Positions 17,127-46,615 of a DNA stretch of 64,000 nucleotides are shown here, in pieces. Positions within the stretch are counted from its first letter, which is position 1. The number at the start of each line of letters is the position of its first letter. The stretch spans positions 25,892,695 through 25,956,694 of the forward strand of contig NC_037599.1 of the NCBI RefSeq assembly GCF_003073045.1, written 5' to 3'. The notes beneath the pieces were generated by a model, which had not been told where the DNA came from, searched no databases, and was given only the letters and a program-made list of their open reading frames with translations. The position numbers and the translations under genes are program-made. The DNA comes from Pomacea canaliculata (Eukaryota > Mollusca > Gastropoda > Architaenioglossa > Ampullariidae).

Positions 17127-20100
17127 CTACAACAACAACAATGAAACAAGAATAGAAAAAATCAGTGGAATGAGAAATATCCAGAGTGTTGTCTTAAGTT
17201 CAACATCCTAAAAGAACTCGTTTGTTTTCCTTTACTAGACTTGCTTGGCTGCTGGTCATGTATGGCAGTCATGGCAATAGTATACGATTAACATTTATTT
17301 GAAAAAGGCCCAGAACAGATCTAAGCTACATCTACCTTTCACATGTTCAGTTCTTTCAGAAGCTGGGAATAAAACATAAAAACAAAGCAAAAAATAAAGA
17401 AAGGAAAAAGTAAACATAGGACAGGTAAGTAAAAGTGAAAAAAGGGCATTGGGAAGTTCCTTTGAATGCAGTGAGAAGGCAGAAATTTGCAAACACTTAA
17501 GCGGCTCTTTTTAAAATCTATTTAGCTGGAGTCACTATATTGACTTTTAAAAAAAGTATAATTCAACAGTTTGTAAAACAGCCTTCCAGGCTTGTTTATG
17601 ATTAGTGCAGTTGTATAAAACACATCAAATTCAACTTTTCGAATTTAGGTTGTCCGAAGTGTCATTTCAATTGTGTTATATCTTATTTTTATTATATAAT
17701 GATTTTTTCATGCTGCAACTTAAGATTAGATATTATCTTTAATTAAAATCTTAACAAATGAACTGTTATATTTATCAAACACACAGATATTTTCATGTAG
17801 GAACAAACACGCTTGTTACACAAATTGTATGTAAAGGATAAAATAGATGACCAGTGATGAGACTGAAAGTATGAGACAATGACGACACAGAGGCAACAGT
17901 AACAGTATGAATTAGTGGGTATTTAGATATATTTAGTCTTTGTTTCACCTGTAGTGATTAGAATTCTTCCAATCAGATTTGATAGTGTTTTTCACATTTA
18001 AGCAAAATTAACTATTTTAAAGTCTGTAAGGTCATCTGTTAAGTGACATTCAAGCTATTTTAAATACATTCATTTTTTGAAACGATTTATGTTGTTGCAT
18101 ACATTTTAAGACATCTTACTTGTTTGGATTTCACTCACATCTTCTAAACAAAGAGAGACAAAATATAGCAAACATCTTTGTAAAATGATTTTCTCTGGCG
18201 AGAAAATAATTCAGTCGTTTTTATCTGAAGCCCTTCATTAACTATTTAAAAGTTAACAATACTTTTTCTACTTTCTTGTATAAAATTTAACATTTTTAGT
18301 CGGTCTTTCCATCTCGTCTAGCTAATAAATCCAGATGTAATGTCCCCTGAATTCTTATTCTGACAATTTGAATCAGACATATTTTATTTCGTACTCACCT
18401 GTAACTGTATATTATGGACAGTCTCTGAGGCTCCTTTGATGGGCAGCTTCGCTTCCTTGCCTGTTGTGGCCTTACGATCGGACTCTTGTGCACGTTTAGG
18501 GCGCCTAGTGTTACCTTCAGAAGGAATTTCTGATAAGCCCATACAATTCGTCGCATTTTGAAAAAAAAACATTTTTTTATGATTTTAATACATAATCTTC
18601 ATTATAAATAGGAAGAGTAAAGGTGGCCATGGTACCTTTTCAGTTGTTACAATTTTCACTTATACTTTTTTTTACAACAGATGAATTTAAGAGATAAAGT
18701 AATCCTTTACTGATTTTTGTTGTCCACAAAATACTTTCGGAACAATTAAGTTCCTAAAATGGCCTTTAGAAAATTGCATGTAAGATTGTTTAAACCTCTT
18801 TTCAATGAGCTTAGAAGTAATCAAAGCAGACAATATAAGCAATTCAAGCTATTCTCACAAAATTAGATACCAGTAAAAACTACAGATAATCTGGTAACCT
18901 CTACCACATTTGGAAGAAGTTGTTATGAATCCATTGCAAAAGACGTACCATCATCAAAGACAAACTTTTTAAGACGCATAAAATGTTCATGTCTTTTGTC
19001 TGCTTTGTCTTCTTTGTTGAAGAGGATGTAGCGTTGACCTGCATCTTTAAGAACATTTTTCAGCTCAGTGCAAACCGTTTTCAGCTCCTCATTGATATCT
19101 CTGTCTTGACGATCACCAAAGGTGAAGGCTACTATGAGCCTAGACCTGAGATAGTCTTCCCCCAAGACTTTCTTAATCTGTTGGTATATCTGGTGTTCCT
19201 CGGCGGTGTAGCGGACGTCACATCGAACGGCCAACAAAATGATGTCTGGATGAAAGAGATACCATTTCTTGATTTCTTGCTCGGCAGTTATCCGCTCGAC
19301 ACCAAGGTTGCTGACGTCAGGGGTGTCTGCTACCTTGAAAGCATAAATGTTTAGCTAACTGACCTGATAGGCAATCACAAGAAGAAAAAAAAACTAATGA
19401 GATCTAGTGTGTACGAAGGTGAAATACAAACAAGAAAAAATCTGTAAATGTATACACATATCTGGTTAAAAATTGGAGGTTAGCAGCAGCACAATCATCA
19501 TCATCATTCCTTGTTACTCCTCAAGGAGCATAGGGCCGCAACAACAACTCGCCAGCGAACCCGGTTTTGGGCAGCCCCCCTCAGTTGGGCCCATGTGGTT
19601 CCGGCAGCCTTTGCCTCGCTCTCTACTGATCTTCTCCAAGTCTGTTTTGGCCTCCCAACTTTCCTCTTCCCCTGCGGGTTCCAGTCAAGTGCCTGCCTGG
19701 CAATGGTGTCAGCCGGTTTGCGCAGGGTGTGTCCTATCCAGCCCCACTTGCGCTTTTTGATGTCTTGACTAGTGGCATTCTGGTTGGTTCTTTCCCACAG
19801 GCTGCTGTTTGATATCCTCTCAGGCCATCTTATTCTCAAAATATGGCGAAGGCATCGGTTGGTGAAGGTCTGGAGCTTGTTGTTGATGGTGTTTGTCACT
19901 CTCCAAGTTTCAGAGCCATACAGTAGGACTGCCTTCACATTGGTGTTAAATATGCGGGTCTTGTTGCGAAGGGATAATGCTCGGGAGTTCCAGATGTGGC
20001 GCAGACTGTTGAAAGCATGCCTGGCCTTGTTTATGCGGCTTCTGATGTCGTCGTCCGCTCCACCATCCTTGCTGACGATGCTCCCCAGATATGTGAAGCG

Positions 20101-23100
20101 GTCTGTTTCTAGGATGTTCTCTCCTTGAAGTTGAATTGGAAGTTCCTGCTTGTTGTTCCTGCTTCCTCTGCTAGCTTGCTCAGTTTGGTTTGTGCATGCT
20201 GCTGCCGATGAGATAGGAGACTAATGTCATCTGCAAAGTCCAGGTCTTCTAGCTGTTTAGTGAAGGTCCACTGGATACCGGTGTTGTTGTCTTGGGTCGT
20301 CTTACTCATAACCCAGTCTATGACCATCAGGAAGATTGTCGGTGATAGTATGCAACCCTGTCTTACACCAGTCTTCATTACAAAAGGTTTAGTGAGTTTG
20401 CCATTATGGATAACTTGGCAGGATGAGTCTTCATACAATCCCTGGACGATGTTTATGAATTTAGGCGGAATACCATAGTGGTTCATCAGTCTCCAGATGA
20501 CGTCCCTGTCTACACTGTCGAAGGCCTTCTCAAAGTCCACAAAGGTTATATAAAGGGAGGATTGCCATTCGATGGACTGTTCTATGATGATACGAAGGGT
20601 TGCAATGTGGTCAGTGCATGATTTGTCCTGGCGAAACCCTGCTTGTTCTGGTCTCATTCTCATGTCTAGTGCCTTCTTCAGTCTCTCTAGTATTATCCTT
20701 GTCAGGACTTTGCTGGGGATGGACAGCAGCATTATTCCCCGCCAGTTGTTGCACTGGGACAGGTCTCCTTTCTTTGGTAGTTTGACCAGGTGGCCTAATT
20801 TCCAGTCTGCTGGGACTAGCTCTTGTTCCCAGATCTTGTGTAGGAGGGGCTGTAAAATTGTTGCTGTTGTTTCTGGGTCTGCCTTTAATGCTTCTGGAGG
20901 TATGCCGTCCGGGCCTGCTGCTTTGTCATTTTTCATGCTTTTGATAGCTTTGATGATTTCTGTCTTAGTGGGAGGGCTGGTGTTGATGTGAAGTTGTGCA
21001 GTTGCTGGTGGTATGTCAGGTAAGGATGGTGGATGAGGTCTATTCAGCATCTCTTCGAAGTACTCCATCCAGCCGTCTCTTTGCTCTGCATCATTTGTTA
21101 TGGTCTTGCCGTTTTTGTCTTTCACCGGCTTGTTTGAGTTTACGCTCTTGCCTGACAGAGTTCGTGTTATTTCATATAATCTCTTCATGTTTCCCTGTGT
21201 GGCTGCTGTCTCTGCTTCCTCTGTTAGTTCATGGGTGAAGCGTCTCTTGTCCTCCCTTGCCGACCTCTTCACTTGCGGTTGGCTTCCCAGCATTTTGCTC
21301 TGAGACCTTCTTTCTCTTGCTGGTCTTGGCACTGGTTGAGCTTCTGTTTCAGTCCCTTTCTTGATTCAATCTTTGCCCAGGTCTCTTGGGTCATCCATTC
21401 CTTATGTTTTCTTTCCCTCTTTCCTAGAACATCTGTACAGGTTGACTTCCAAATTCTTTTGAGTGTTGACCAGTGTTCTTCCACAGATTCTTCCGCCAAT
21501 CCTGAAAGGGCCTCGTACTTATTCTTAATTTCACAGTTATAAATTTCCCGTGTCTCCTTGTTCTTGAAGTACTGGGTATTGAACTTGTGATGTGGTCTGC
21601 CTGCTGTATCAATGAAAGACTTCAGCTTGATCTTGAAGACTGCTATTAGAAGCTGGTGGTCTGAAGCAGCATCTGCTCCTCTTCTCACTCTGACATCTTG
21701 GAGAATCCTTCTCCACCTTCGACCAACTGTTATATGGTCAATCTGGTTTTCCGTTTGGCCATCTGGGGAAGTCCACGTTGTTTTGTGTATATTCTTGTGT
21801 GGGAATACAGTGCCACCAATGACATGGTCGTTGAAAGCGCAGAAGTCTATGAAGAGCTCCCCGTTTTCATTGCAGGTGCCGACGCCATGTCTTCCCATGA
21901 TGAGCTCTCTGTCGGTGCTGTCATCTCCCACTTTGGCATTTAAGCAGCACAATAGGTCAGAAGATGTATTCCGACTGATTTAATATCAAATATATATACA
22001 TAACTAGCAGTTATTTTTCAATACCGAATCTTCCAGCTAATGGATAAAACGTTTTCAATGTTGTTAGCAAGTGAAGCGAGATTTCTACAGTTATCAAACT
22101 TCTTGCAAAACTAACGAAACTAAATGAAAAGATCTTCCCACAAAACTACTAAAGCAGTTTATTAACAAAAATGAATAATTATAAAATATGTAGGCTAGCT
22201 ACACTGTTTACACTGCCTTACTGTGATCGTCAAGCCATCTTTTTGAGCTGAGGCTGTCACGGTCTGCGTGGTGGATGTTGCCAACCCACGCGTGACTCTG
22301 AAGGCGGCTGTGTCTAGGAGGGAGTTACCCACGGTGCTTTTACCGTTTCCTGTCTTGCCAATGATCATCACATGAAACCCGTTTTCTGAAAGAAATGACT
22401 TTTTATTTGTGTGTTTAGTAAAGATTGTATTCAAGTACATAAGTAAGCTCATTAGTCATAAGTAATATCTCAACAAATACCCGACAACAACTTTTATAAT
22501 GTAAATGAAAATAAAAATGTATTTTACACTATGCACAAACACACATAAAAGGAATGATTTGTTATAAAATTCATTTCCTAATACACTTTTTTGAAATGAA
22601 AAAAATCATCTTACTGAGTTCATTCACAATGTTGAACACCTGGTCAGCACGATCTCTCTGTTCACTTGCACTCAGTGACCTGTCGAAGATGACGTAGCGA
22701 TGTCCAGCGCAGTCCATGACCTGATGAAGGGCAGAAGAGGAACTTACCATAAACTCTTCGATACTTTTCTTCAGTCTGTCTCCAAATGTAAACAGAACCA
22801 CTAGACGTCTTTTGAGATTGTCTTCCCATAGTTCTACGAATCTCTGGAATCTCAACACATCAGACACTAGGTCACGTGTGTCACAGCGAATGGCCAGTAA
22901 AATCAGGTGAGGATTGGGACACATCGCCTTCCACTTCTGGATTTCCTCCTTTGCTTTCTTCTCGTTCTTTAATTCTTGACAGTCGAGATCGGGCGTATCA
23001 AGAACCTTTAAACACAGCAAAAATGAAGCCAACTAATCATAAAAGAGAAAAATAGATAACATTGAGAATATTGTTCATTTATCCTTTATCATCACTTACG

Positions 23101-23741
23101 ATTTGCTGTAGTTTTATTACAGCATCTACCACTAGCATTAGATATTCCTAACAGCCACATTTTCTTTAGTTCTTGCTTCTAGTCAATCCTTAAGGCTCTT
23201 TTACTTTTGTACAAAGGCTGCTTACAGAACTGTAGGGAAAAAGTTTACAGCAAGCAATGTTATTAATTAAATGGTGTAGCGGTCTGTGCAAGGTGTCGTC
23301 AGCGCTTTGAAGCGGAATGTGACCCCGTTTGACCTGCCGGTGACCACCGCGCGGATTTGACTAGAGCTGCTTATTCTAGCAAGTGCGTGAGTGAGTGTGA
23401 CTGACGATTATTTTTTTTCGGAGAGTTTGTTATAATACTGACCTTCATACGTGGGTGCTGTGATTGTGTCTGTTTGAGCTGACATGTCGCTGGTGAGACT
23501 GGATTATTAATTGAATACATTTGAAACATGTCTTCTCCAATGAGAACATTTGCAGCTGTACTTTTGCCACTTCCAGAAGCACCAATGATGATGATTCTGA
23601 TTTCCTCACATTGGTGCAGGGCGGCGTTTGTGTCAGCGCCATTACAAGAGACTGGCATCACAGGATGAGCAAGGACATCATCACTGTCAGCTGCATCACA
23701 TTCTTTTCGTCTTTTTTTGACTGCGACAGGATCCTGTGATT
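17127..23741 (-). CDS. Gene D: two-domain (type II + type I) AIG1/GIMAP GTPase with C-terminal membrane anchor
   Basis: Six exons join in phase: 23443-23741, 22615-23005, 22222-22385, 18949-19333, 18399-18529 and 17127-17207, giving about 483 residues. Residues about 1-45 are a hydrophilic leader with a basic cluster, AVKKRRKEC. Domain II (about 46-230) has P-loop GASGSGKST, G3 LDTPDL, the LLAIRCDTRD box and FTFGDR. Domain I (about 231-413) has P-loop GKTGNGKST, G3 ADTPD, AVRCDVRYT, FTFGDRQD and AGQRYILFN. A basic linker of 43 residues follows. The last exon reads DVELKTT, then LWIFLIPLIFSILVSLLLL, then stop: a textbook tail anchor. The first exon begins in phase 1 after an acceptor, so an upstream exon is needed. 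None is obvious before the LINE at 24003, and the site is phase-compatible with gene F. An internal ATG at 23658 is an alternative start. A 2.4-kb LINE sits in the third intron. Confidence 0.8.
19496..21942 (-). mobile_element. RTE-like LINE, 5'-truncated, 11-bp target duplication
   Basis: Minus-strand non-LTR retrotransposon in an intron of gene D. Reading 5' to 3' it holds the C-terminal half of an AP-endonuclease (LNAKVGDD near 21930, QIDHITVGRR, ASDHQLL), a reverse transcriptase (about 21300-20110; PEQAGFRQDKSC, DFEKAFDSVDR, GVRQGCILSP, LDFADDISLL) and the C-terminal part (VLLYGSETW, then WGWIGHTLRK, ending CSLRSNKE). Frame changes near 21300 and 20130 split the ORF. The 3' end carries an ATG/GAT short tandem tail, as in RTE elements. 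AGCAGCACAAT flanks it exactly (19485-19495 and 21943-21953), so it is a single 5'-truncated insertion. Clade call is from RT motifs by eye. Confidence 0.9.
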
Positions 23742-24002: not shown

Positions 24003-25636
24003 CAATACTAATAATAATGTGTGTACTTGTATCGCGCAGCAACACGACCAAGATGGGTCGCACCCTCTGTACTGACCAGTGATGATTAATGAATATAATG
24101 TAACACACAATGGACGGTGAGATACGTATAAGCACACTAAAGATGAAGTACAAATGATAAATGAACATTAGGAACACACAGTGACTGTGAGATCCGTTTA
24201 AGTGCACTAAAGAAGTGTAGAACGTGATGCAATGAACAGAGGTATGAAAGGATATAGGAATTATAAACATTGTAGACATGGAGTAGTTACATAATGGTGC
24301 CTATGACAGACAACATTGCAGAAGGAGGTGTGGATAGTAATTCATTGATAGTACTTAGTGAACAGAAATGTTTTAGAGAGCCTTTGAATGTAGTCTTGGA
24401 GTCCGAGTGGCGTATGTGATGTGAATTCTACTACTTAGCAGCACAGATGGAGGATATCCGTTGTCCCCATGTGACTGTCTTTGTGGGAGGGAGGATAGAA
24501 TGCAGGAGTCTGATGAGGAGCAAAGGTTTCGAATAATAATAACAATATTAAGAAAAAGAAGTGAGAATTTATATAGTGCAATATGTTAGCCAAAGGTTGA
24601 CTCACTGCAATGAACACGATAACAAAATAGTAACAAAGATGTAGAAGGAGGAACAATGCAAGGACTCTTTGTGTTCCGACAGTAAAAGGCGATAACTAGA
24701 TGCAACAGTAACGACTCCAGAGAATAAGGTTAGTGACATCTGAAAAATACTGGGAAGATACTGAATAATCTTGAGAACATAAAGAAATGTTATCATGTGA
24801 AACTGCAAAAGGGTGATCGTCACTTTTTTTCACTGCAACTTAGTGTGGTAACCGGAGGAAATGAAGCACGGTGGAGTGGAATCAAGCCAATAGATCCAAG
24901 AAATTCGCACTTCAAATAACATTACAGGTAGTCCTCGGGTTACGACGGTCTCGAGTTACGTCGTTTCGGGGTTACGACGCTCATTCCGACTTACGAGGTT
25001 TAGCGTCGTACACTGTTTATTACTGTTACAGCACTTACAGTACAGTATCTCATTATTAAACGTACTGTACTGCACAATATTTTACTGTACTTATGTTTAT
25101 TGAGAATTATTTAGGGTACTGTGTTAGGATAGGTGTTTGGATAGGCTAAATGTTTGCAGTACTGTGCTGTAAAGTACTGTATGAACGTATGATCCGACTT
25201 ACGTCGAAATTCGGTTTACGACGCCGCGTAAAACGGATCACCGTCGTAAGTCGAGGACTATCTGTATATACATTATCTACATTATATACATTAAGAGTAA
25301 GAGTGTAGACAAACAAAATTTCAATAGAGTAGAGAGGAGGAAGCCATCAAAGAATCCATAGCACAGAGGTGAGAGCTTGTAGTCTAATAAAGAGAGTGAA
25401 GAAGTGGCGTGACATGTTCACATTTGCGAGTCAGGAAAACGAGGCAAATAGATATGTTCTGGATTTTCTTATGCTTATCAATGAGGTCATGTAGACAGCC
25501 AGCTAGAAGAGAGCTTCAATAGTCTAATGAGAAAAAAAAAATGGACAGATGAGAATGTTGGTGGTTAAGAAGGACATAGTATGGCGAACAGAGTTGATCT
25601 CACAAAGTTTATAGGACGATTAAGAATATTAGAGTG
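24003..25636 (-). mobile_element. L2/CR1-like LINE fragment inserted in the last exon of gene F
   Basis: On the minus strand the segment encodes broken RT C-terminal pieces: SSLLAGCLHDLIDKHKKIQN, then RKCEHVTPLLHSLY, and later IRHSDSKTTFKGSLK. This is the normal order at the end of L2/CR1-type ORF2. It ends in an ATT-rich tail near 24003-24015. The right border, about 25636, is where module A of gene F stops matching module B (after GATGTTACT). A MITE is nested inside at 24925-25264. I found no clear target duplication. Confidence 0.75.
24925..25264. mobile_element. Tc1/mariner-superfamily (Tigger/pogo-like) MITE, 340 bp, TA duplication
   Basis: Terminal inverted repeats are CAGGTAGTCCTCGGGTTACG on the left and, on the opposite strand, CAGATAGTCCTCGACTTACG on the right. 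They are flanked by TA dinucleotides at 24923-24924 and 25265-25266. The interior is short, without an ORF, and rich in ACAGTACTGTA-like motifs. It is nested in the LINE at 24003-25636, so it is the younger insertion. Confidence 0.9.
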
Positions 25637-26930
25637 TACTTCTACAGTAACATCACCGTGCATTTGATCACCTGCAATGAGTGAACTGTCGACTTCACAA
25701 CCACGCATTCTCTCAGCTGTAAACAATTCAAAATAATCAACTAATTCTAAATTTTTGTTAGGAGATATATGTAATGTTTGCTTTAGTAACTGTTCTGTCA
25801 TTGTAAGTCATTGTTTGCATCCTTCTTAACTACCAGTTATTAAAAGAGATTTAAGAAAATTCTCACCATGACTAAGTGCACAGTTCATAAGTTGGGTAAG
25901 AGGGTCTTTCTTGTTGTGTTCTGAAACCTTTTGTGCTTTGTTGCTGAACATAATGTATCGGTTATCCGCATCTTTAAGAACATCTTTCAGCTCTGGGCAA
26001 ACTGTTTTCAGCTCCTCGTTGATATCTTTGTCTTGACGATCACCAAAGGTGAATGCTATCGTTAACTTTGATGTAAGATGTTCTTCCCCTAAGACTTTCT
26101 TAATCTGCTGGTATATCTGGTGTTCCTCAGCAGTATAGCGGACGTCACATCGAATGGCCAACAAAATGAAGTCAGGATGAAAGGAACACCATTTCTTGAT
26201 TTCTTCCTCTGCAGCCTTCTCGTCGACACCAAGGTTGCTGATGTCAGGTGTGTCCATTACCTATGTAAGATTAATGTCTAGGAAATGAGGTTTACTGGAG
26301 TTTTAAAGAATAAGGTTAGAACTGACGTAATTATTTTTAGTGGATTCAGATAAATGAGAAAATGTAAAACAATAAAGAAATTTGTACAAACACTTATTCA
26401 CACAAAAATATTGCTGCAGTGTCAAACATAATGTTTCCAAGCATGCTTCACTTTACCGTTCAAAAAAATAGAATAACGATAACGAGTTTTGTTATAACAT
26501 CGGTGATTTTCCACCACTTTGTGTGTGTGTAAGAGGCAGATAGAGAGAAAGGTAATTTGAACGACGGTGAATGAATCTGCAAGATCCATTTCCTGCCCAA
26601 TTATTTATGTGCTCGTGTAACTTAAGGCATGTGAGTCCCTTAACGTCCTATTTCATCTTCATCTTCATCATCATCATCGTCATCATCAGGAAAAAACAAG
26701 AAAGGTATGGTATAACAGAGCTCTAAGTATAAAGGCCCTGTTTATATCTTACTGTGACCGTCACTCCATGTACTTCAGCAGAATTCGTGACAGCGAATGT
26801 TGTGGAGGAATTCAACCCACGTGAGACTCTGAAGGCGGAAGTGTTGTTCAGGAGTATGTTTCCCAAGCTGCTTTTTCCGTTTCCAGTTTTGCCGATGATC
26901 AGTACTTAAAAGCAAAGGAACTATATTATA
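25565..26930 (-). repeat. Module A of gene F (third type I domain copy)
   Basis: This segment is nearly identical to module B (28308-29690) across introns and exons. Similarity ends at 25636, where the LINE begins. It contains P-loop exon 26753-26904, G3-G5 exon 25867-26260 and the start of the linker exon at 25794. The G3 is MDTPD, and the box reads LLAIRCDVRYT. The near-identity of introns points to a recent duplication or to gene conversion. Confidence 0.85.
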
Positions 26931-29900
26931 AACATCTAAAGAATATAGCATGTAACATACAATATGTAACCATATATTAATTTTGTAATGACATAACTGA
27001 GAACAAATGACTTATAAAAAGAAATTTAAACAAAGGAAAGATCAAGTTAATGCAGTAAGATAAAAATGCTCTTGGGAAACTAATCAATAGTAGCTCTACA
27101 CTGAATGTTTTTGTGACATAAGTATTCGAAAAACAAGCATGTGCTTTCCCTTTCATAATTACTTTTTAGCAGTTTCTCTCACTGTTAATGATATTACTAC
27201 AAAAAGCGATGTTTCTTTAACTAGCAGCGTTACACTTTATAGTAGGAAAGTGGCTTAATAACAACACATTGTTATTTTAACCACAAAAGAGCTGGAAAAA
27301 ATAAAATCAACAAAGTTGAAAAAAGCAAGCGAAATGTATGCTCGCATGAACTTCAACAACTTCTCTCTGAGGTGAAGGTGTTGCCATCCCGACTACGCCT
27401 ACCGAGCCTTATTCTTTGGAAAGACCTTCATCATTACTTTCAGTGACTACGACAAACCCTTAAAGGGACTAAATACGTAAATACATTCACTGACCGTTGG
27501 ACTAACCTATTTTTCTCTTGAATTTTTTTCCTTCTTCTCTCATGGTCCCATTTCACAAATAACATCCACAATATTAAATGAGGAAGAGAGAATACGAGAG
27601 AAATTGTTTGAGGGAATGTTGTGGCAATAAACATTTAAATATAGATGTAAGCACATCTTGTGATATCGACTACTTTCATGATTCCAATCACGTACAAGTG
27701 TCCCTTTCCTCATCAAACACAGTCCATACATTATAATATTCTCCGAAGCAAAGATAAAAGTTTTTTTACTCAACATTATTTGCATTCTTTGACAAAAGAG
27801 CTTAATTTCTATGAAAAATGAAAATTACCAATAGAAAATATTCGAAAGTTTGCCGCACATTCCAGTAACTAGAACTAAATATTTCATATTATATACACCC
27901 CATGAATGAGTACCTTTAAGCTGTCGGGTGTTGCGAGCAGGCATTGGCTGTGTTTCCACATCAGCAGCACGACAAGACTGTAACTGTGTTGGAGTGTTTT
28001 CACAAGGGTCTTCTGGAAATGAATAAAAGCTATCTGAAAGTAAATACAGAATCAAACATTAACAGGCAAATAGCAAACTCTTTTCACACTTCTTGGTATA
28101 ATGTCTCTCTACACAGCAGTACTACAACTTTCTCCATCCTGTAATAATATATATCTAACACTACAAACGTCGTTAAAAATTAAATTAAAAACACTCCTAT
28201 TAAAGTACGAAGATTTAGGAAGCAAATAAGAGGGAAAAGAATATTAAAAAGATTTCATGATAAAACATTTCAAACTTACACCGCTTATCTCATTTTTATG
28301 TTATTGCTTATAAAATAGAAACCATTAAGTAGGCATTAACATTACATCCAATAAAGAATATAAATTTGATGCTAAAAACAATTGTCAAATTACCAGCCAC
28401 ATACTTACTGAGTTTAGTAACATCAGCGTGCAATTGATCACCTGCACTGAGTGAACTGTCGACTTCACAACCACGCATTCTCTCAGCTGTAAACAATCCA
28501 AAATAATCAACTAATTCTAAATATTTGTTAGAAGATATATGTAATGTTTGCTTTAGTAACTGTTCTGTCATTGTAAGTCATTGTTTGCATCCTTCTTAAC
28601 TACCAGTTATTAAAAGAGATTTAAGAAAATTCTCACCATGACTAAGTGCACAGTTCATAAGTTGGGTAAGAGGGTCTTTCTTGTTGTGTTCTGAAACCTT
28701 TTGTGCTTTGTTGCTGAACATAATGTATCGGTTATCCGCATCTTTAAGAACATCTTTCAGCTCTGGGCAAACTGTTTTCAGCTCCTCGTTGATATCTTTG
28801 TCTTGACGATCACCAAAGGTGAATGCTATCGTTAACTTTGATGTAAGATGTTCTTCCCCTAAGACTTTCTTAATCTGCTGGTATATCTGGTGTTCCTCAG
28901 CAGTATAGCGGACGTCACATCGAATGGCCAACAAAATGAAGTCAGGATGAAAGAAACACCATTTCTTGATTTCTTCCTCTGCAGCCTTCTCGTCGACACC
29001 AAGGTTGCTGATGTCAGGTGTGTCCATTACCTATGTAAGATTAATGTCTAGGAAATGAGGTTTACTGGAGTTTTAAAGAATAAGGTTAGAACTGACGTAG
29101 TTATTTTTAGTGGATTCAGATAAATGAGAAAATGTAAAACAATAAAGAAATTTGTACAAACACTTATTCACACAAAAATATTGCTGCAGTGTCAAACATA
29201 ATGTTTCCAAGCATGCTTCACTTTACCGTTCAAAAATAGAATAACGATAACGAGTTTTGTTATAACATCGGTGATTTTCCACCACTTTGTGTGTGTGTAA
29301 GAGGCAGATAGAGAGAAAGGTAATTTGAACGACGGTGAATGAATCTGCAAGATCCATTTCCTGCCCAATTATTTATGTGCTCGTGTAACTTAATGCATGT
29401 GAGTCCCTTAACGTCCTATTTCATCTTCATCTTCATCATCATCATCGTCATCATCAGAAAAAACAAGAAAGGTATGGTATAACAGAGCTCTAAGTATAAA
29501 GGCCCTGTTTATATCTTACTGTGACCGTCACTCCATGTACTTCAGCAGAATTCGTGACAGCGAATGTTGTGGAGGAATTCAACCCACGTGAGACTCTGAA
29601 GGCGGAAGTGTTGTTCAGGAGTATGTTTCCCAAGCTGCTTTTTCCGTTTCCAGTTTTGCCGATGATCAGTACTTAAAAGCAAAGGAACTAGAGGTTATTA
29701 CATAAAACACCTAAAGAATATAGCATGTAACATACAGCATACACCATAACATGATGACATAACCGAGAACAAATGACTTATAAAAAGAATTTTAAACAAA
29801 CAAAGGAATGATCCAGTTAATACATAAAAAACACGCATGTGAAAATATTCAATAGGTGCTTGAACTGTACACTGCATGGTTTTGCTAAATATGCATCCGA

Positions 29901-32900
29901 AAAACAAGTCTGTGGTTTCCCTTTAATAATTACTTTATAGCAGTTTCTCTCACTGTTAATGTATTTGTCTACACTGATTATCCCCATTTATTAGTGTCAA
30001 ACACAAACTTTAAAATTGCCGTGGCCGTTTGGCAACATTGTTGTTACAAAAGGCAAAGTTTCTTTGATAGCGTTACACACTACATGTATAGTGTGAAAGA
30101 GACTTAATAATGACACACTGCGATTTCAAAAAAACTTCAAAAATAATTTAATAAAAAGACGCAAATGAAATGTATGCTCGCATGAACTTAAACCACTTCT
30201 CTCTGAGGTGAGCTTGTTGCAATCCCGACTACGCCTAGTGTGGCCTTATTGTTGGGAAAACCTCTATCTGTCACTACTTGCGGTGACTACGACATACCTT
30301 TAAAGGGACTTAATTCGTAAGTACCTTCACTACCTGGTGGTCTCCCCTATTTTTCCCTCATTAAATTTATTTTCCTTCCTCTCTCTAACCTCATGGTCAC
30401 ATTTTGAAAATGACACTCGGAAGATCAAGTGAGGAAGAAAGAGTATAAGAGAAAAAGTGTGGGAGAATGTTGTGGCAAAAAACCTTTATTAGCTAAAAGT
30501 CCTTTCATTGTTTTAATCGACATGTAAGCACATCTTGTGATATCGACTCATTTCATGATTCCAATCACAGGCAAGTACCACTTTCCTGATAAACCACATT
30601 CCATAGGTATGGTACTCTCCGAAGCGAAGATAATTTTTTTTCTACACATTTACAAATTCACACATTTTTGGATAAAATAAATTAATTTCTATGAAAAAAG
30701 GACAGCTATTAATAGAAAATATTCGAAAGTTTGCCGCACATTCCAGTAACTAGAACTAAATATTTCATATTATATACACCCCATGAATGAGTACCTTTAA
30801 GCTGTCGGATGTTGCGAGCAGGCATTGGCTGTGTTTCCACATCAGCAGCACGACAAGACTGTAACTGTGTTGGAGTATTTTCACAAGGGTCTTCTGGAAA
30901 TGAATAAAAGCTATCTGAAAGTAAATACAGAATCAAACATTAAAAGGCAAATCACAAACTTTTTTCACACTTCTTGGTATGAGGTCTCTTTACATGGCAC
31001 TGCTACAGCTTTCTCCATCCTGTAATAATATATATCTAACACTATGGATAAAGAATATAAATTTGATTCTATAAACACTTGTAAAAACATCAACTAGATA
31101 CTTACTAATAAGAATTACTATAATCACTTTGCATTTGTGCATTTGATCACCTGCACTGAGTGAACTGTTGACTTCACAACCACGCATTCTCTCAGCTGTA
31201 AACAATTCAAAATAATCAACTAATTCTAAATTTTTGTTAGGAGATATATGTAATGTTTGCTTTAGTAACTGTTCTGTCATTGTAAGTTATTGTTTGCATC
31301 CTTCTTAACTACGAGTTATTAAAAGAACTTTAAGAAAATTCTCACCATGACTAAGTGCACAGTTCATAAGTTGGGTAAGAGGGTCTTTCTTGTTGTGTTC
31401 TGAAACCTTTTGTGCTTTGTTGCTGAACATGATGCATCTGTGATCCGCATCTTTAAGAATATCTTTCAGCTCTGTGCAAACTGTTTTCAGCTCCTCGTTG
31501 ATATCTTTGTCTTGACGATCACCAAAGGTAAAGGCTACTGTTAGCCTTGATCTCAGATATTGTTCTCCTAAGGCTTTCTTAATCTGCTGGTATATCTGGT
31601 ATTCCTCTGGGGTATAGCGGATGTCATAACGAATTGCCAACAAAACAGCGTCAGGATGAAAATAACACCATTTTTTTATTTCCTCACCTGCAGCCTTCTC
31701 GTCAGTACTAATGTTGCTGACATCAGGTGTGTCTGTTACCTAGGAAATATTAATGTTAAGCATACTGGTCTTGTATGCTCTCACGATGAAAAGAAAATGA
31801 GATCAAAGCAGCTAGGAAGAGAAAGCACAAACATTTAAGCAGTCTTTGTTTATTAGACTGGTCGTACGATGTTTTCAGAAAGATACTTCGGCCTGATTTT
31901 AGCTATCACAGTGACGACAAGCAAATAAGAAAACAGTATATCAATATATCAAAACATAGATGCGTACATACACTAAATGAATGATAATTTTTCAATAAGA
32001 AAAGCAATTCTTTTTAATAAAACTAATAGGATAAAGCCCTAGATAACACTATCATCAAATTATTCATCTTGATAAAGTAGCTAAATAAGACTGCTAAATA
32101 AAGCTAACAAGTAAAATTTTAATATTAAGGAATTTGAGAAAACTAGTTACTCCTACTATCTATTAAATCAATACCTCAAAAACAGAACTTTGTTTTAAAC
32201 TAATATTTTGCGCATTTGATTCATAACAGGAATATCTTCAAAGAGCAGTCTCTTTACAAGGATATTAGCCATTTTATTCTTACGATTTCAACATCTCTAG
32301 AGGCAGCATCATAATCATTCTGCGTACAATAAGACTAAATTTATCTCGGGTGTGGTTTTTTTTTAATCTATCTATAAATCTATTTTTCTTTCCTAAACCT
32401 TTAAGTAGTCAGAAAAACTGAGTTAATAAACTGTCTTACTTTGACGATCATGTCGTTTATCTGAGCTGACTGTGTCACGGTGTGTTTGGTGAATGATGAC
32501 ATCCCACGAGAGACACTGAAGGCAGGTGTTCTCAGAAGGGAGTTACCTATGGAACTTTTACCGTTTCCTGTCTTGCCGATTATCAACACATTAAACACAT
32601 TTCCTGAAACAAATCGATTTGGTGCAACCATCATACTGTTATCCTGACAAAAATATTACAGTGTCCAAATATAAAGTAACAGAAGAATCCAGTAATTCAT
32701 AGCGTGTAAGTTAAGTGGAAAACTCTTATAGACTGAAACAACTAACTTACTGAAGTCCTTGACTATTTGAAACACCTGCTGAGCACGACCTTTCTGTTCA
32801 CTTGTACTTAGTAAACTGTTGAAGATGATGTAGTGATGTCCAGCGCAGTCCATGACATCCTGTAAGGCTGAATGAGACCGGGATAGAAACTCGTCGACAC

Positions 32901-33672
32901 TTTCCTGCAACTTGTCTCCAAATGTGAAGAGCACCGAAAAACGTCTTCTCAGATTGTCTCCCCATAGCATTCTAAATCTCTGGAATTTCGACACATCAGA
33001 CACTAGGTCACGTGTGTCACAGCGAATGGCCAGCAAAATCAGATGTGGATCAGGACACATTACCTTCCACTTTTTGATTTCTTCTTTCGCTTTTTTCTCG
33101 TCCCTTAATTCTGGACAGCCGATATCAGGCGTATCGAGAACCTTTTAAACAAAAATACCACGACACTGTATAAGCATGAAAGAGATAATTTTGCAACCAT
33201 TATTATTACTCTAACAATAATAAAGAGAACAGTATCAGCTACTCTTATGACGACGACGACGACGACGATGATGATGATGATGATGATGACGATGACGACG
33301 ACGATGAGGATGGGAGCAATGTCTTTAAAAGGCATGTATTTGAAGCTAATGAATATCACTATTGTGTCTAATATTATTATCATTAATATTTACCTTAAGA
33401 TACATATCTCCTTTTTCCACCTCAGCCATCTCTGCCGTGGTAGTTGTGGAACTTGATTGACTAGCTGGTGCTCTTTGTTTAATGCATTCCTCACCAAGCA
33501 AAACATCTTTGGCTGTGCTTTTCCCACTTTTAGAGGCACCAATAATGATGATTCTCATTTCTCTGTCGTCACCATTTTGGGAATCTTTAGTTTCCGCGTT
33601 TTTGTGGAGAGGAAAAGCCTGCGAATCCGTTTGCTGATTTTTCTCCAAAGATGCTTGTTTTTCTGTCTCCAT
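25565..33672 (-). CDS. Gene F: four-domain AIG1/GIMAP GTPase built by tandem domain-module duplication
   Basis: Thirteen exons join without a phase break: 33394-33672, 32751-33141, 32440-32603, 31346-31739, 31106-31273, 30795-30914, 29520-29671, 28637-29030, 28409-28564, 27914-28033, 26753-26904, 25867-26260 and 25565-25794. The sum is 3114 nt, or 1037 residues plus stop. The ATG at 33672 has an in-frame TGA upstream. Domain II (about 40-223) has P-loop GASKSGKST and LDTPDI. Type I domains lie at about 224-409, 506-687 and 780-961, each with GKTGNGKSS, a DTPD G3, an RCD- or RYD-type box and FTFGDRQD. Between them run linkers of about 96 and 92 residues (SHEQLLKQTLHIS, then CRAADVETQPMPARN). 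The last exon runs into a LINE and stops 24 residues later, so an ancestral C-terminus, probably a membrane anchor as in gene D, is lost. Separate shorter genes cannot be excluded, but modules B and A have no start codon of their own. Confidence 0.7.
27830..29690 (-). repeat. Module B of gene F (second type I domain copy)
   Basis: Contains P-loop exon 29520-29671, G3-G5 exon 28637-29030 and linker exons 28409-28564 and 27914-28033. It is offset by 2770 bp from module A at the G3-G5 exon; the two encoded G3-G5 exons differ at only one residue (Phe for Ser in KKWC-F/S-FHP). Linker exon 27914-28033 is almost the same as 30795-30914 in module C. Confidence 0.85.
30709..32640 (-). repeat. Module C of gene F (first type I domain copy, more diverged)
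   Basis: Contains P-loop exon 32440-32603, G3-G5 exon 31346-31739 and linker exons 31106-31273 and 30795-30914. Its G3-G5 exon has the same length (394 nt) as in A and B but differs more, including AIRYDIRYT where other copies have AIRCDVRYT. The P-loop exon is the older form (164 nt, as in gene D), while A and B use a 152-nt version with a different acceptor. So C sits next to the ancestral type II domain and A/B are later copies. Confidence 0.8.
33247..33304. repeat. (GAC/GAT)n microsatellite in first intron of gene F
   Basis: GACGACGAC followed by GATGATGAT and mixed units, about 58 bp. It lies between exons 33394-33672 and 32751-33141. Confidence 0.85.
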
Positions 33673-35695: not shown

Positions 35696-38600
35696 ATGGA
35701 CGAACTTCGCGTGGTTCTAGTGGGAAAGACCGGAAGTGGCAAGAGTGCTTTGGGAAATACACTCCTAGGCCGTAACGCCTTTGACTCTGAACGCGGCCTG
35801 AATTCTGGCACAAAAAAGTGTAACTGGGCAGAAGCTAAAGTTGATGGGACAATCCTCAGTGTGAGTATTTCTAAACAGAAGTTACCATTACAAAACCTCA
35901 CTAGTTTAGTCCTAACTATTCCTCGAGTAGCATAGGACCACATCCATACTTCACGAAACCTGCTAATTTCTATAAGATTTAAAGTGTAAAACACACGTAA
36001 TTAGTACAGCGATTGATGAAGATAATTAATTACTAGGGACCAATACTCTTACTAAATAAAAGTTGGCTGTTGCGAAAGTTGTGCAGTTAATCACTGAATG
36101 TTATGCATGTGTAAATCTGAACCTAAGAAGTAAAAAAAAGCCTTCCTTATGTCAGTTTGCTAGTAAACATGGCTGTCTCTTCGGGAATAGTTAAAGTACA
36201 TGCAGTAGTCATGACAATTCTTAGTAAAGAAAGAGTTTAATGTAGTATACTATTCTATTTAGCTTTAATGATGTTCTCTAAGGTATGAACTTTTTCTTAC
36301 AATCTTCCAAAATACTCAATATTTTATCATTTTCCCTTGTAAAGTGAAGTCAAATTGATTAAGCTGCTCCTCTCCTAGATGAACTGTCTAATCTGTTTTA
36401 TTTTCTTCCAAGGTGACAGACACACCTGGACTGTGTGACACCCACCGCAAAGAGGAGGAAATTCTATTGGAAATCGGCAAGTCCATAGCTGTGGCCTGCC
36501 CAGGACCTCACGTTGTCATCATTGTCCTTCGATGTGATCAACGCTTTACCAATGTTAGTCTACTCGTGATAATCCCTTTAAAAATCAAGCTGTTTCTTTG
36601 GGTGTGTCCTTAAAGTAAGGAAAGAAAATCCACCCTTGGGAAACACGTCTTAAATAAACGCCATAAAGAATAATGTTTTCATAGCACCACTTGTAGCTTC
36701 TTAAAGGCTTCACACTTGAAGAAAAGTGAGAATCGTGTTGTACTTGGCGATTAACCATTTTTTTTTAGGCCCTTCGCCCATCCTGGGGCACAGGCCATCG
36801 ACTACGGTCTTAACTGTTGTCGATGTTTTGATAGCAAGGATTTGTTTTAGGGGTGGGGGTGCTGGCCCCACGCCCAACCCTCCTCCTTTTGCAGCCGGGC
36901 TTGGGACCGTCCTTGGCGGAGGGCGGGCAGCCCTGTAAACAGATGCCACGTGCAGAGAAAGAACACCATGCCCGAGACGAGAAATGAACTCAGGGCAGCC
37001 AACCTTCACTGTATTGGTGACAGGCGCTAAAAGCGCTAACAGCTAACCGTTGCGCCACCAGGCCGCTGGCGATTAACCATGACTGTGAAATAATTACAAA
37101 GACGTCTTCTTGTAACGGATCTCCCTTTGTGTGTATACGAACACATGAGTTTGTATTTGTCTGTTTGTACTTGTGTGTGCATGCAATCCATTACCCTCGT
37201 TAGACCTCATCCCCTTTGTTTTTTTCCCTCTGGTTAAAATGTATTTGTTTAAGCTTAAGCTTTCTGATTCATAGTACAAAATTACTTTTTCTTTGGCAAG
37301 CTTTGTAATTCTCTTATGAGATGTTGAAATTAAATATTTTAAATTATTTCCGCTTCTGTAAGCATGTTTCTTGCAAATTTCTTTTCTCCTGACAGGAAGA
37401 ACATCAGGCAGTAAAGACTCTGTTGAAACTGTTTGGAGAGAATGTTCGTTCTCATCTCATGGCAGTTTTCGTCGGAGGAGATAGCCTTGACGTTCCTTTC
37501 AGTAAGAGTCAACACAATCTAATTCAAGCAGGTTTTTTCAGATATTTCTGGACCTAAATTGTGTTTTTCTTGATCTCGTAAATATGAGATTATAATCTGC
37601 TATTTCTTTTACAGAGTACACTACCTCTTTCTTTGTCAACAGATCAGATGCAGGCTGCTCTAAAAGAAGAAATTGACAAAGGATCAGAACTGTTGAAAGA
37701 TGTTGTACGCGACGTCTGCAACCGTTTCTGTGTGGTGGACAACAAAGGTTCACCTGAAGCCAAGAGGCAGCACGCACGGGTCGTTCTAAAGATCATTGAA
37801 GTAAGTCGAAGAAGCTATATTTGAGCAATGTTTAGCTATACGAAATAAAACATATGTTCCGGCCGCTATCAGACCTGTCATATTTGACTTCATCATTTAT
37901 TTGTAGTTCATATATTGATAACTGCACCGGCCAAGACAAAGTGCCCATTCGTTCACAAAAGAGAAAATAGAATCAAAGCGAGATTTTAATTAATATCAAA
38001 AACACAATTTTGATACACTAATAAAGGATGGGATATTCCATCACTAACCATTATCAAGCATTTTCAGTCTAAGTAGGTGTGATTTTATTCGCTTGATAGA
38101 ATATTGCCTGTCAAGTTCTGTGCCATTTTCTTGATTTAATAATCAGAGAACTGACTTTGAATAATCAAGGGAAACATTGTGCGTACTAAAATCAGGTAAA
38201 CTCAATCAACCGCCATAAAACACGAAGATAATTTAAATTATATAAAAAAGAGATTAAATACCTTTAACAGGACTCTTTTAGGTTACAATAATAATGTCTT
38301 AACAAATATTCAGAAGCAAAAACATCCTTTGTTTAAATAAAGTTCTCACCTAAGCTTGAAGTCTGTAATCTGCACAATAATACTTGTTTATATGTGACCA
38401 TCCACGACGAAATGAGTCTTAAGTCGCGCAGAACAGTTTTGTGCTAGAGGCCCTGAAAGGAGATAGGTCAGTTTTGTGCAGCTTGACTTTTCTTTAAAAA
38501 TGGATTCCTTGGTTATTACACTATCAGGAAAATACACTGGTATGTTAAAATAAAGTTAGAAATTGACTTTAAATACGTTTTAATCGAGGTACCCTACTGC

Positions 38601-39350
38601 GATCAGTACCTCTTTCAGACAAAATTCAAACGCTGTTTCGATACTAATTCCAAGTCATAACCCATCGTGTTATACTTGACAGAAAGCACGGAGTCTGTAT
38701 GTTCAACTTCTTCAAAGAACGATTCAAATATTAACCGATCAAAAGATTTGTCTGAAAAAGTTTAGGAGTAAACAGACATGGTCGGCCATCTTGACGCTAA
38801 TCTTTGAACCCGCTTTTCTCAAAATGGTCCCAGCCGTACTGTCACACTTCAAACGTTTATAACTCACTTCGCGATAATGCTAGAAGAACAACATTTATAT
38901 CAAAAGAAAGTTCAGAACCTCTACCTTTTACAAATATGCAATTTGGCAATGTGCTTCATCTGTGTGCGTGTGTGTAAGTGTTTTCGCGTCAAGTAGGTTG
39001 GCCATTACATAGGGAAACATTGAAATCAGTTGTCAAAGAGGTATGTCTTTCATTTATGTCTTTTTCAGGATGTAGTTGAAAGCAACAAAAAACGTTTTTT
39101 TACCAACAATATTGTTGCTAAATACGACAAAGAAATGGAGAAAACCATAAGTCGCCATCAGGCAGAGCGAAACTTGTCAACAGAGGAGGCGGTCAAAGAA
39201 ACCAGACAATTCGTCGTGGAAGAAAAAGAAGAACCTGGTTTCTTTCAAACTCTAACGAATGTTACCAAGGATTACATATTGCCAGTTGTTTCAAACCCCC
39301 TAGTGGGTAAAGCTGCTACTTTGGTGTCATCGCAATGTTCTGTTATGTAA
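35696..39350 (+). CDS. Gene G: classical-type AIG1/GIMAP GTPase ending in a CAAX box
   Basis: Five exons: 35696-35860, 36413-36553, 37396-37501, 37643-37800 and 39069-39350, in phase, 283 residues. P-loop GKTGSGKSA starts at residue 10. Exon 2 gives G3 [15 protein letters not shown] and the [11 protein letters not shown] box. Exon 3 has [11 protein letters not shown] where classical GIMAPs carry the TRxD-type G4, so nucleotide specificity may be weakened. Exon 4 encodes the conserved [12 protein letters not shown] loop. The last exon is a charged, probably helical tail ([17 protein letters not shown]) ending Gln-CSVM, a CAAX-type prenylation signal expected to favour farnesylation because X is Met. 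An AATAAA follows at about 39379. The ATG is two bases after an acceptor, so a 5' untranslated exon is likely. A SINE lies in intron 2. The last exon was copied three more times downstream. Confidence 0.9.
36759..37066 (-). mobile_element. tRNA-derived SINE, 308 bp, 14-bp target duplication
   Basis: On the minus strand the element begins AGCGGCCTGGTGGCGCAACG, with an A-box-like TGGCGCAACGG and a weak B-box region (GAGTTCATTTC). It ends in an A-rich tail (the T run at 36759). TGGCGATTAACCAT occurs at both borders (36745-36758 and 37067-37080). It sits in intron 2 of gene G. Confidence 0.85.
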
Positions 39351-40379
39351 TTAGAGCAAATATGTGAATGATTATTAGAATAAATTAAGACACTTGCAAT
39401 TACTGATAACTGTGGCACACAGTACTTACCTCCAATAGATAATAACAACAAACACCTACAGATTATCGCAGCAATGATTTTAAAAAAAAATTGATCAAAC
39501 GATGTTTCTGCAAAAAGCCAAAGAACCAATCAGTATGTAATGTTGTATTTGAAATGAGTTCTTGAAAAACGTAATTTGTTTTTAACATATACATAATTAA
39601 ATCATGTGACATGTTCAAAGAAATGTAAAACAAAAAGATTGATATGTACATACGTTTCCATCTCTTGTTATTGTTCAGTTCATGTTTTAGATTACTAGTC
39701 TTATTAGAAAATATCTCTGTTAACCTCATTACAGGACGTCCGATCTCTCACCTTAGCTTAGACTCAGGCCGACTATTGGTGTAAACTTTCCAATGTGTCC
39801 ATAAAGTCTTACCAAATGTGTATTACTGTCATAGCGAGGTTTCCATATCTCTTTTTAACATTTTAATCTTCTGTATATTTTGCTTTCGTATTATATATAT
39901 ATACAGAAAAAGATTTTAACTATTGCAAGCTTGTAAGGTTAAACAAGGAAGTTTGACTTTAACTGACTTTGGTTGATAATTATGCTTATCACACATAACT
40001 AGTAGATTAATAATAATAACTGCGTGATCACATTTACAAATAATTATTTTTGTTTTAACTCATTACATTATTTTAATTATCTGTTTTACAACGTGAATTA
40101 ATTGTGTATTTATATGAACATCAGACTATTTTGTACACGCTTCTACAATGAATGTGTAAATAAATTAAGATAACACTGAAAGTTCTTTCATTTGCTTTTA
40201 TTACTTTTCGATAAAGTCTCCATTTTCTTGTGAATTTATTTTATTTATATTACACTTTTATGAAGACCCAATCTTCTTAAACTATTATGAAGATATGCTT
40301 ATTGTAAAAATCCTTCTACACAAATAAAAGCCTATAGTATGAAGATTTTTAGTTATTGTGCAGCAAAACGATGTAGTTT

Positions 40380-40675
40380 CTCCCTTTTTTATAACTTCCA
40401 CCTACACACGATTGAATCCTTTAAATGTTCATTGAAAATGCATCAACCTGCCACACAATACTTGTTGCACACTTCCTCCATTTTCCTCTTAATGTCACTT
40501 TCCTGTTCTCAGTCCTTGTTACTTGGTTCCTTTCTGCGTTTTCTGAATTTATCTCTTATTCTTCATCATTACTGTTTATACTTCCGTCGTTCCTATGTTG
40601 TTTGTTTGTTATTCTATCTCTGGTATGTTGTCCCTGTCTTGTTGTTCTATAGCGCTATAAATGAAAATATAAAAG
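40380..40675 (+). mobile_element. LINE 3' fragment inside array unit 1
   Basis: Plus-strand translation starts IESFKCSLK, the usual last motif of L2/CR1-type ORF2, and the segment ends with TATAGCGCTATAAATGAAAA, a common LINE 3' end. It is part of the block present only in units 1 and 2. Long open frames here are by-products of this fragment and are repeated by duplication. Confidence 0.5.
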
Positions 40676-41228
40676 CATCTGCGTGCGGAAGGAAGTTATT
40701 TTCTTAAACTAAAAGTTTCTCTGCTTCTAAAAGTAAGAATCACAGTATCCATACTCTGTACTAAAATATTAATAGAAAATAGGTTTTGATTATATGTTAA
40801 TTATTGTCTGAAGAGATAAATTTATTAATGTTTGGCCATAGGTCTAGGTTAATGCGTTTCTTAACACGTTCCCTTCTCACTCTTTGGAGCTATGCTTTTC
40901 TTAAATTGCATATTCTGAGTGATCTTCTCCATTTTTTACATTCAAATTAAAATCGAATATAATTTCTAAAGCTTTCAGACATACTTTTCCTATCATTATT
41001 AAAATATATGATATTTATTATTCATCACTTATTATAAGGAAACGTACAACTTGTTTCTACTGTTTTCAAAGGCATTCTTTACAAAGAAACTTTTTTTTTA
41101 ATACATACGATGCAATGAAAGCTGCAATGTTTGGAATCGACATTGCGTTTACACACCTTTAGTAAAGCCTCCATTGTCAAGAACAGAGGAAAACTTCATT
41201 TGCATAAAATAATTTTGTCGGATCCGAC

Positions 41229-42430
41229 GCACCCATGACCTTGAGCCAGTCACATGACACGCGCGTCCATCTTGATTTCTTTGCTTTGACAACAACCTTG
41301 CAGAAACAATGCCATATACTCCAACCAATACCAAGACCTTTTCCGTAGAAGATAAAGTCTAGTAATCGGCATGAAAACACGGGGGTGTAAAATATACCTA
41401 CAAACAAGTCTCTTCAAGTGCGTTGGCACCAGTTGCAGGTGTTCTCGAAACTGCTGAATAACTGAAGACCTTTGGAAAAGACCTTTGTTTTTATGTATAT
41501 TGACCTCTCCTTACCCTATGATTAATCGAGCTTCCAGAACATACACTCATGACCGTAACCCAGTTACTTCACACGCACACCCTTCTTGTTTCTTATCCTT
41601 GGCAGAAATAATGGCCCCATGTCTAACCAATACCAAGTCTTCTTTCACAGAAAATTTACATGGAGTCTAATCACCGGCATAAGAAAGGTTTGTGCTGTGC
41701 AGGAGAGAAAAATGCTGTTTATGTTAATAAAAGCTGACCCGACGACCGTTTTGGTTGACATTTGGGTCATTAGACGGTCAGGACATTCGAACTTGTACGG
41801 GTTCAAGTGATTAAACGAGTTTAAGTGAGCATGATTGAACACAAGAAGCTTACCAAGCACTCGTGTCAAAACACATTGGACATTTGAATAGAAACAAAAA
41901 TATCGTTCAGTTCTATAGAGAGCATGTAGAGAGAAGACATCCTTGCTGCTCATAATGCTTTTAAATAGTTGTCTTCAAAGTTGCCTGCGGCTTTTACTCG
42001 CGTGTGTCTGTGTGCAGGTGGCGCGCGAACGTGATTATTTTACCAACAGGTGGCTGCAGATGCGTACGCACCTGTTCCAAGTTTGTTTGCTTTTTGTGCT
42101 GAACGACGTACGAGTTTCGAGAAAACATGTGTGCGCTTGTCTTTAGATATGTTAACCTCTCCCTACCGCATGATTAGTAGAGCATACCCAGTCATGACCG
42201 CAACCCAGTTACTTCACACTCGTACCGACCTAGATTCTCATGCTTTGACAACGACTTTGCAGAAAGTCTTAAAAATTGACCAATAGCAAGTCTTCCTTCA
42301 CAGAAAATTTACATGAAGTCTCGTCACCGGGATAGGCTAAGCACGAGAGAAAAATGTTGTCTGTTGCAATAAAAGCTGACCCAGTGACCGCTTTGTTGGA
42401 ATTCAGGTTCATTGAGCTAAACGACCTTCT
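41229..42430. repeat. Internal sub-repeats of the array unit
   Basis: Within each unit, two or three diverged blocks of about 650 bp recur. Examples are CCTATGATTAATCGAGC (from about 41516) and CCGCATGATTAGTAGAGC (from about 42163), each followed by CCCAGTTACTTCACAC, then CAAGTCTTC...ACAGAAAATTTACATG and AAAAGCTGACCC. The block at 41270-41400 is a weaker third member, and 51795-51840 a fourth outside the array. Confidence 0.65.
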
Positions 42431-42702
42431 TGACATGCAACGGATTTTTTTCTATCAGCTAGGAAAATGTCGCAAAAAGATTAATTTAGGTCAATAGACA
42501 GAAGTGGTTAAAAGTTTCGAAACTGAAATAATTTAACCCGAGAAGTGTACTGAACATTCGGTAAAAATAGTTATCTTGAAAGTGTGTGTGCGTTCGTGCG
42601 TCCGTGTGTGTGTGTTTTATGTCAAGTAGGTTGGCCATTACATAGGGAAACATTGCATTCAGTTGTAAAAAAGGGTATGCCTTTTATTTATGTCTTTTTT
42701 AG

Positions 42703-42982
42703 GATGTAGTTAAAAACAAGAACAGTTGTTTTTACCAACAATATTGTTGCTAAATACGACAAAGAAATGGAGAAAACCATAAGTCGCCATCAGGCAGAGC
42801 GAAACTTGTCAACAGAGGAGGCGGTCAAAGAAACCAGACAATTCGTCGTGGAAGAAAAAGAAGAACCTGGTTTCTTTCAAACTCTAACGAATGTTACCAA
42901 GGATTACATATTGCCAGTTGTTTCAAACCCCCTAGTGGGTAAAGCTGCTACTTTGGTGTCATCGCAATGCTCTGTTATGTAA
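42703..42982 (+). pseudogene. Copy 2 of gene G last exon, frameshifted
   Basis: The acceptor TTTTTTAG and the exon body are kept, including the final CSVM and stop. The first 37 bp are two bases shorter than in the functional exon, so reading from the acceptor in gene G's phase runs into a stop after about 16 codons. The rest (from METEK-like MEKTISRHQ at 42767) remains open and almost unchanged. No other gene G exon is duplicated with it. Confidence 0.8.
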
Positions 42983-44015: not shown

Positions 44016-44300
44016 TTTTTATAACTTCCACCTACACACGATTGAATCCTTTAAATGTTCATTGAAAATGCATCAACCTGCCACACAATACTTGTTGCAC
44101 ACTTCCTCCATTTTCCTCTTAATGTCACTTTCCTGTTCTCAGTCCTTGTTACTTGGTTCCTTTCTGCGTTTTCTGAATTTATCTCTTATTCTTCATCATT
44201 ACTGTTTATACTTCCGTCGTTCCTATGTTGTTTGTTTGTTATTCTATCTCTGGTATGTTGTCCCTGTCTTGTTGTTCTATAGCGCTATAAATGAAAATAT
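44016..44300 (+). mobile_element. LINE 3' fragment inside array unit 2
   Basis: Copy of the fragment at 40380-40675, duplicated with the unit. It has the same IESFKCSLK start and the same TATAGCGCTATAAATG end. Confidence 0.5.
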
Positions 44301-46335: not shown

Positions 46336-46615
46336 GATGTAGTTAAAAACAAGAACAGTTGTTTTTACCAACAATATTGTTGCTAAATACGACAAAGAAA
46401 TGGAGAAAACCATAAGTCGCCATCAGGCAGAGCGAAACTTGTCAACAGAGGAGGCGGTCAAAGAAACCAGACAATTCGTCGTGGAAGAAAAAGAAGAACC
46501 TGGTTTCTTTCAAACTCTAACGAATGTTACCAAGGATTACATATTGCCAGTTGTTTCAAACCCCCTAGTGGGTAAAGCTGCTACTTTGGTGTCATCGCAA
46601 TGCTCTGTTATGTAA
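46336..46615 (+). pseudogene. Copy 3 of gene G last exon, frameshifted
   Basis: Same two-base shortening near the acceptor as copy 2, and the same terminal CSVM codons. The shared lesion shows that copies 2-4 descend from one already broken copy. Confidence 0.8.

Follow-up and report, generated by a model that had tools for sequence, protein, structure and literature searches.

A four-domain AIG1 gene model in Pomacea canaliculata with repeated type I modules and mosaic divergence

Gene F and its exon chain

The window analysed here is the whole stretch of 64,000 nucleotides of Pomacea canaliculata DNA (contig NC_037599.1), with positions counted from its first letter. Gene F lies on the minus strand and runs from 33672 to 25565 in 13 exons, and all of its 12 introns are GT-AG. 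The spliced sequence is 3114 nt long—1037 codons and a stop codon in an uninterrupted frame—with exon end phases of 0,1,0,1,1,1,0,1,1,1,0,1. An earlier note on this DNA claimed that 13 exons join in one 1037-codon frame without a phase break, and that both junctions from a linker exon to the next P-loop exon are phase 1 to phase 1; rebuilding the coordinates and phases bears out both points. The exons are as follows, all on the minus strand.

33394..33672, minus strand: exon 1, start ATG and type II P-loop (GASKSGKS)
32751..33141, minus strand: exon 2, type II G3-G5 (DTPD ... FTFGD), end phase 1
32440..32603, minus strand: exon 3, P-loop exon of module C (GKTGNGKS)
31346..31739, minus strand: exon 4, G3-G5 exon of module C
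31106..31273, minus strand: exon 5, C-terminal exon of module C, 168 nt, phase 1-1, weak acceptor
30795..30914, minus strand: exon 6, linker of 120 nt in phase 1-1 with an in-frame ATG, a strong acceptor, and a weak donor
29520..29671, minus strand: exon 7, P-loop exon of module B
28637..29030, minus strand: exon 8, G3-G5 exon of module B
28409..28564, minus strand: exon 9, C-terminal exon of module B, 156 nt, phase 1-1, weak acceptor
27914..28033, minus strand: exon 10, linker, identical to exon 6 at 118 of 120 nt
26753..26904, minus strand: exon 11, P-loop exon of module A, identical to exon 7 at 152 of 152 nt
25867..26260, minus strand: exon 12, G3-G5 exon of module A, identical to exon 8 at 393 of 394 nt
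25565..25794, minus strand: exon 13, C-terminal exon of module A, with its own 3' end and stop codon

Each internal C-terminal or linker exon (168, 156, 120, and 120 nt) has a length divisible by three, and omission of the internal C-terminal exons keeps the frame. Modules A and B had also been described as lacking start codons; this is so for their P-loop exons, both of which have an in-frame TAA immediately ahead of the acceptor, but each linker exon holds an in-frame ATG 10 codons upstream of its donor.

Splice sites were ranked with a general consensus matrix. The linkers have strong acceptors, at ranks 9-10 among 534 AG sites, and weak donors (AAAG/gtactc), at ranks 58-59 among 502 GT sites; the acceptors of the C-terminal exons are weaker, at ranks 130-132 of the 534, and all other modelled sites fall at ranks 3 to 44. 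Given how often stops occur in the local introns, the 40 open codons of a linker have a probability of about 0.08, and the 53 open codons of a C-terminal exon one of about 0.035, neither of them far outside chance. These two exon types are the weakest elements of the model.

AIG1 domains were identified with Pfam, both in the spliced product and in each segment alone. The product contains four AIG1 stretches (E 2.7e-108), and the separate segments score 78.6 bits (type II), 106.6 (C), 99.6 (B), and 100.7 (A), all four above the curated cut-off of 27 bits and far beyond chance, so that the four domains claimed earlier, one of type II and three of type I, are confirmed. The G1 P-loop (GxxxxGKS/T) is present as GASKSGKST in the type II domain and as GKTGNGKSS in all three type I domains. 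The G4 motif is FTFGD in all four, which agrees with TxGD, the G4 form given for Biomphalaria glabrata AIG1 proteins in the available text of PMC7053062. The canonical G3 motif (DxPG) is absent from gene F, each domain having DTPD instead; this does not exclude membership of the AIG1/GIMAP family, because human GIMAP2, an accepted member, carries DTPD too. The model of gene F, with its four AIG1 domains, is real and well formed, and from it we infer the splicing and the protein product.

Ratios of nonsynonymous to synonymous change (dN/dS) are below 1 in all nine exon comparisons, ranging from 0.26 to 0.65. Between modules C and A the whole module gives 0.35, its G3-G5 exon 0.28, and its P-loop exon 0.26; between gene F and the adjoining gene E, type II exon 2 gives 0.36, part of exon 1 gives 0.43, and the type I exons give 0.31 to 0.65, the highest being the C-E comparison of the P-loop exon. 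These values fit coding sequence under constraint, although gene conversion disturbs such estimates. The coding changes between A and B, nearly all of them in the C-terminal exon, comprise 11.5 nonsynonymous and 0.5 synonymous changes, a preponderance of replacements that speaks against the model but is not significant (Fisher p 0.08).

Gene E and other features of the window

Gene F is adjoined by a two-domain paralogue.

18923..23658, minus strand: gene E, type II and type I domains, start codon uncertain

Pfam identifies two AIG1 stretches in gene E, and its intron phases are 0,1,0, as in gene F. The two-domain form, type II plus type I, is plausibly ancestral, with the type I part tripled in gene F. 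The repeated unit, made up of P-loop, G3-G5, C-terminal, and linker exons, has phase 1 at both ends, which together with the lengths of the internal C-terminal and linker exons lets modules be gained, lost, or skipped in frame. Searches for further copies of the linker and C-terminal exons outside gene F gave nothing convincing, the best outside matches having E values of 0.056 and 1.2.

By tblastn, each strand of the window proved to hold further AIG1-like exons, many in all. On the minus strand, fragments at 8374-8207, 7791-7390, and 6629-6516 correspond in that order to a type II P-loop, a type II G3, and a type I G3; no type I P-loop was found between them by tblastn of the window, and the fragments (6516-8374) look like a partly decayed third two-domain gene. 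On the plus strand, an AIG1 exon at 61702-62316 has a canonical DTPG and ends in CSVM. The same CaaX-like ending is seen in an 83-residue reading frame that is identical in each of four tandem copies at 38961-51623 (with unit lengths of 3.6 and 2.7 kb and 94-99% identity); these frames may be repeated last exons of a plus-strand GIMAP at 35702-36544. The last intron of gene E contains long retrotransposon frames (19504-21979), one with a reverse transcriptase domain (PF00078), whereas the frame next upstream of it has no Pfam match; our guess is that the element is of LINE type. The window opens with a long tandem repeat (1-1728) whose units, judged from self-alignment offsets, are about 55 bp.

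Divergence among the modules and alternative readings

The divergence between modules A and B is very uneven and includes one block of near identity.

25678..26925, strand not assigned: low-divergence block relative to module B, introns included, gene-conversion-like

The block holds 6 differences between A and B in 1245 sites, against 241 in the 1258 aligned sites outside it, where there are indels too; the log-likelihood ratio for the block is 153.9, and the highest in 20 shuffles was 8.7. Selection on the protein cannot explain the block, because it includes an intron with only two differences in 489 aligned sites. It indicates gene conversion or a similar exchange, with consensus error as a caveat. 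A further change in divergence is seen between C and A: the first 320 sites of the G3-G5 exon hold 46 differences, and the next 280, which take in the last fifth of that exon, the intron of 72 bp, and the greater part of the C-terminal exon, hold only 6.

Trees were built with FastTree and 200 resamplings. For the P-loop exon, in an alignment where three of the ten rows (A, B, and the outgroup o10) start one codon after the others, C groups with gene E in 119 of 200, which is weak support. For the G3-G5 exon, with o10 dropped (its reading contains a stop) and o58 trimmed by one codon, 190 of 200 resamplings unite C with A and B, a figure that drops to 121 of 200 on the first 240 alignment columns alone. 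The different shapes of the two trees point to a mosaic history, the P-loop figure being the weak one. Simple duplication is not the whole history of these modules, and the intragenic duplication proposed in the earlier note is correct as to a phase-1 module but incomplete, since A and B look overwritten across 1.2 kb.

Beyond the donors of both linker exons the frame stays open for a short distance.

30709..30794, minus strand: in-frame extension of linker exon 6 past its donor, up to a stop
27825..27913, minus strand: in-frame extension of linker exon 10 past its donor, up to a stop

These read-through reading frames are 28 and 29 codons long, and both stop within two codons of the point where identity between the copies drops. 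The linker copies differ at 2 of 120 sites, compared with 242 of 1171 in the flanking introns (Fisher p 2.5e-9). We set this conservation aside as proof of coding, since the identity runs about 80 nt into the intron and a conversion tract or a terminal exon would fit equally well. A longer linker exon as the normal form was also rejected: its donor, at 27828, appears in only one copy and, counted from the coordinates, would leave the frame. Shorter isoforms ending after a linker are possible because the linker donors and C-terminal acceptors are weak and the linkers read through to stops, especially after module C, which is followed by six poly(A) hexamers from 30517 to 29927. On the gene F strand no AATAAA or ATTAAA occurs between 29927 and 25101, a gap noticed post hoc in a scan of those two hexamers that found 17 in 9.5 kb with about 19 expected, and of supporting weight only.

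The reading that we consider probable is that gene F is one AIG1/GIMAP transcription unit, derived from a two-domain ancestor by duplication of type I modules whose copies were then partly overwritten. The ancestor would have had a type II and a type I domain, like gene E, and tandem duplication of a module with phase 1 at both ends would have added two type I domains; with such ends any copy number would keep the frame. Gene conversion or a similar exchange would then have overwritten parts of the copies, A and B most recently.

It is unlikely, in our judgement, that the locus is instead an in-frame cassette array that makes mostly two-domain proteins, type II plus one type I, and longer ones only sometimes. 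Exon 2, ending in phase 1, would splice to any of the three P-loop exons, and the linker would serve as a terminal exon with a tail and a stop. The relevant donors and acceptors are indeed all in phase 1, the exon lengths of 168, 156, 120, and 120 nt divide by three, the linkers combine strong acceptors with weak donors, their read-through frames end close to the drop in identity, and gene E has the two-domain form; yet the gap in canonical poly(A) hexamers leaves termination after module B unsupported, and a short conversion tract could account for the 80 nt of identity. A related version, to which we give a little less weight, is a phase-1 array in which an invariant N-terminal domain is spliced to one, two, or three conversion-homogenised C-terminal G domains. 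If this were true, splicing would decide how many GTPase domains each protein carries, and the count of modules may vary from one individual to another.

An arrangement of separate genes, in which one two-domain gene (type II plus C) is followed by single-domain genes B and A starting at the linker ATG, would account for the in-frame ATG in both linkers, for the six hexamers after module C, and for the read-through of exon 4, which likewise ends in a stop. The C-terminal exons are, however, only 191 and 375 bp from the next linker exons, and these short gaps, with the lack of a hexamer between 29927 and 25101 and hence between B and A, argue against separate B and A genes. The linkers also have strong acceptors that first exons do not need, and an in-frame stop stands just ahead of the B and A P-loop exons; we regard this arrangement as very unlikely. 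Slightly more remote still is an assembly artefact, in which one of modules A and B is a false duplicate, or the two were evened out by consensus polishing. The concentration of the near identity of A and B in one block and the presence of other near-identical tandem copies in the window are what such an error would give, but the 241 differences and the indels outside the block mark A and B as distinct sequences, and module C is clearly different.

On the favoured reading of a single transcription unit, the window captures stages of a change in domain number in an immune GTPase: a two-domain paralogue, a four-domain gene, and the near-complete overwriting of its two newest modules. If transcripts bear out the four domains, gene F would offer a natural covalently linked foursome of G domains with which to ask about GIMAP pairing within a chain.

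Likely function and comparison with known AIG1 proteins

Cross-species comparison was made with the sequences of solved structures. In this alignment DTPD at G3 is common to human GIMAP2 and the gene F domains. The GRYT arginine of GIMAP4 is matched by an arginine in module A, and that of both GIMAP4 and GIMAP7 by one in the type II domain; we take this residue to be the GIMAP7 arginine finger. Dimerisation of GIMAP7 supplies an arginine finger (PMC8066113, figure legend), and GIMAP2 and GIMAP5 bind GTP with no hydrolysis on their own (available text of PMC8201404). GTP binding with slow or partner-dependent hydrolysis is by analogy the likelier state of the gene F domains, because all four have DTPD, like GIMAP2. 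The protein would most likely work as other GIMAPs do, as a GTP-binding scaffold or switch in cell-autonomous immunity, and we infer a scaffold whose G domains pair within one chain or between chains. Human GIMAP2, GIMAP4, and GIMAP7 belong to the same family by sequence but have a single G domain, and GIMAP2 differs further in its C-terminal hydrophobic stretches (available text of PMC4201521). Among viral contigs 11 stretches matched a pattern and none was confirmed as a relative, and among prokaryote genome contigs 69 matched, again with none confirmed.

Several proteins with more than one AIG1 domain are known. Mammalian GIMAP8 resembles gene F in carrying several AIG1 G domains of the same family in one polypeptide, but it has three to the four of gene F, and a near-identical repeated module with linker exons goes unmentioned in the available text of PMC4201521; gene F may work like GIMAP8 but is not filed as GIMAP8. 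Among molluscs, two AIG1 domains are found in 8 of 91 genes in B. glabrata (PMC7053062) and in a few of 69 in B. pfeifferi (PMC10075465), and the C-terminal domains of some dual genes of Pomacea fall among bivalve sequences (PMC7053062). According to the available text of the two papers, the dual-AIG1 genes of Biomphalaria and Pomacea lie in tandem arrays (PMC7053062, PMC10075465). Most B. glabrata genes, so far as described there, have one exon per domain, whereas gene F has four domains in split exons. Gene E, with its two domains, fits this dual class better than gene F with four. Lancelet AIG1 proteins have two or three consecutive domains, a likeness to gene F, in a family with many dispensable genes, and their most recurrent architectures carry CARD or HINT (available text of PMC12373286). 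Neither CARD nor HINT is among the best 25 of 28 Pfam families for gene F.

The literature search covered open-access papers, in whose available text no four-domain AIG1 protein of an animal was found; such proteins may well have been annotated elsewhere, and annotations of fish proteins with over three AIG1 domains may exist. The phrase 'four AIG1' occurs in papers on Entamoeba, and in PMC5884625 it refers to four family proteins and not to domains. The architecture had been called unusual in the earlier note. Because two- and three-domain AIG1 proteins have already been published, the fourth copy is an extension, and gene F extends a known multi-domain family and is not a new kind of system.
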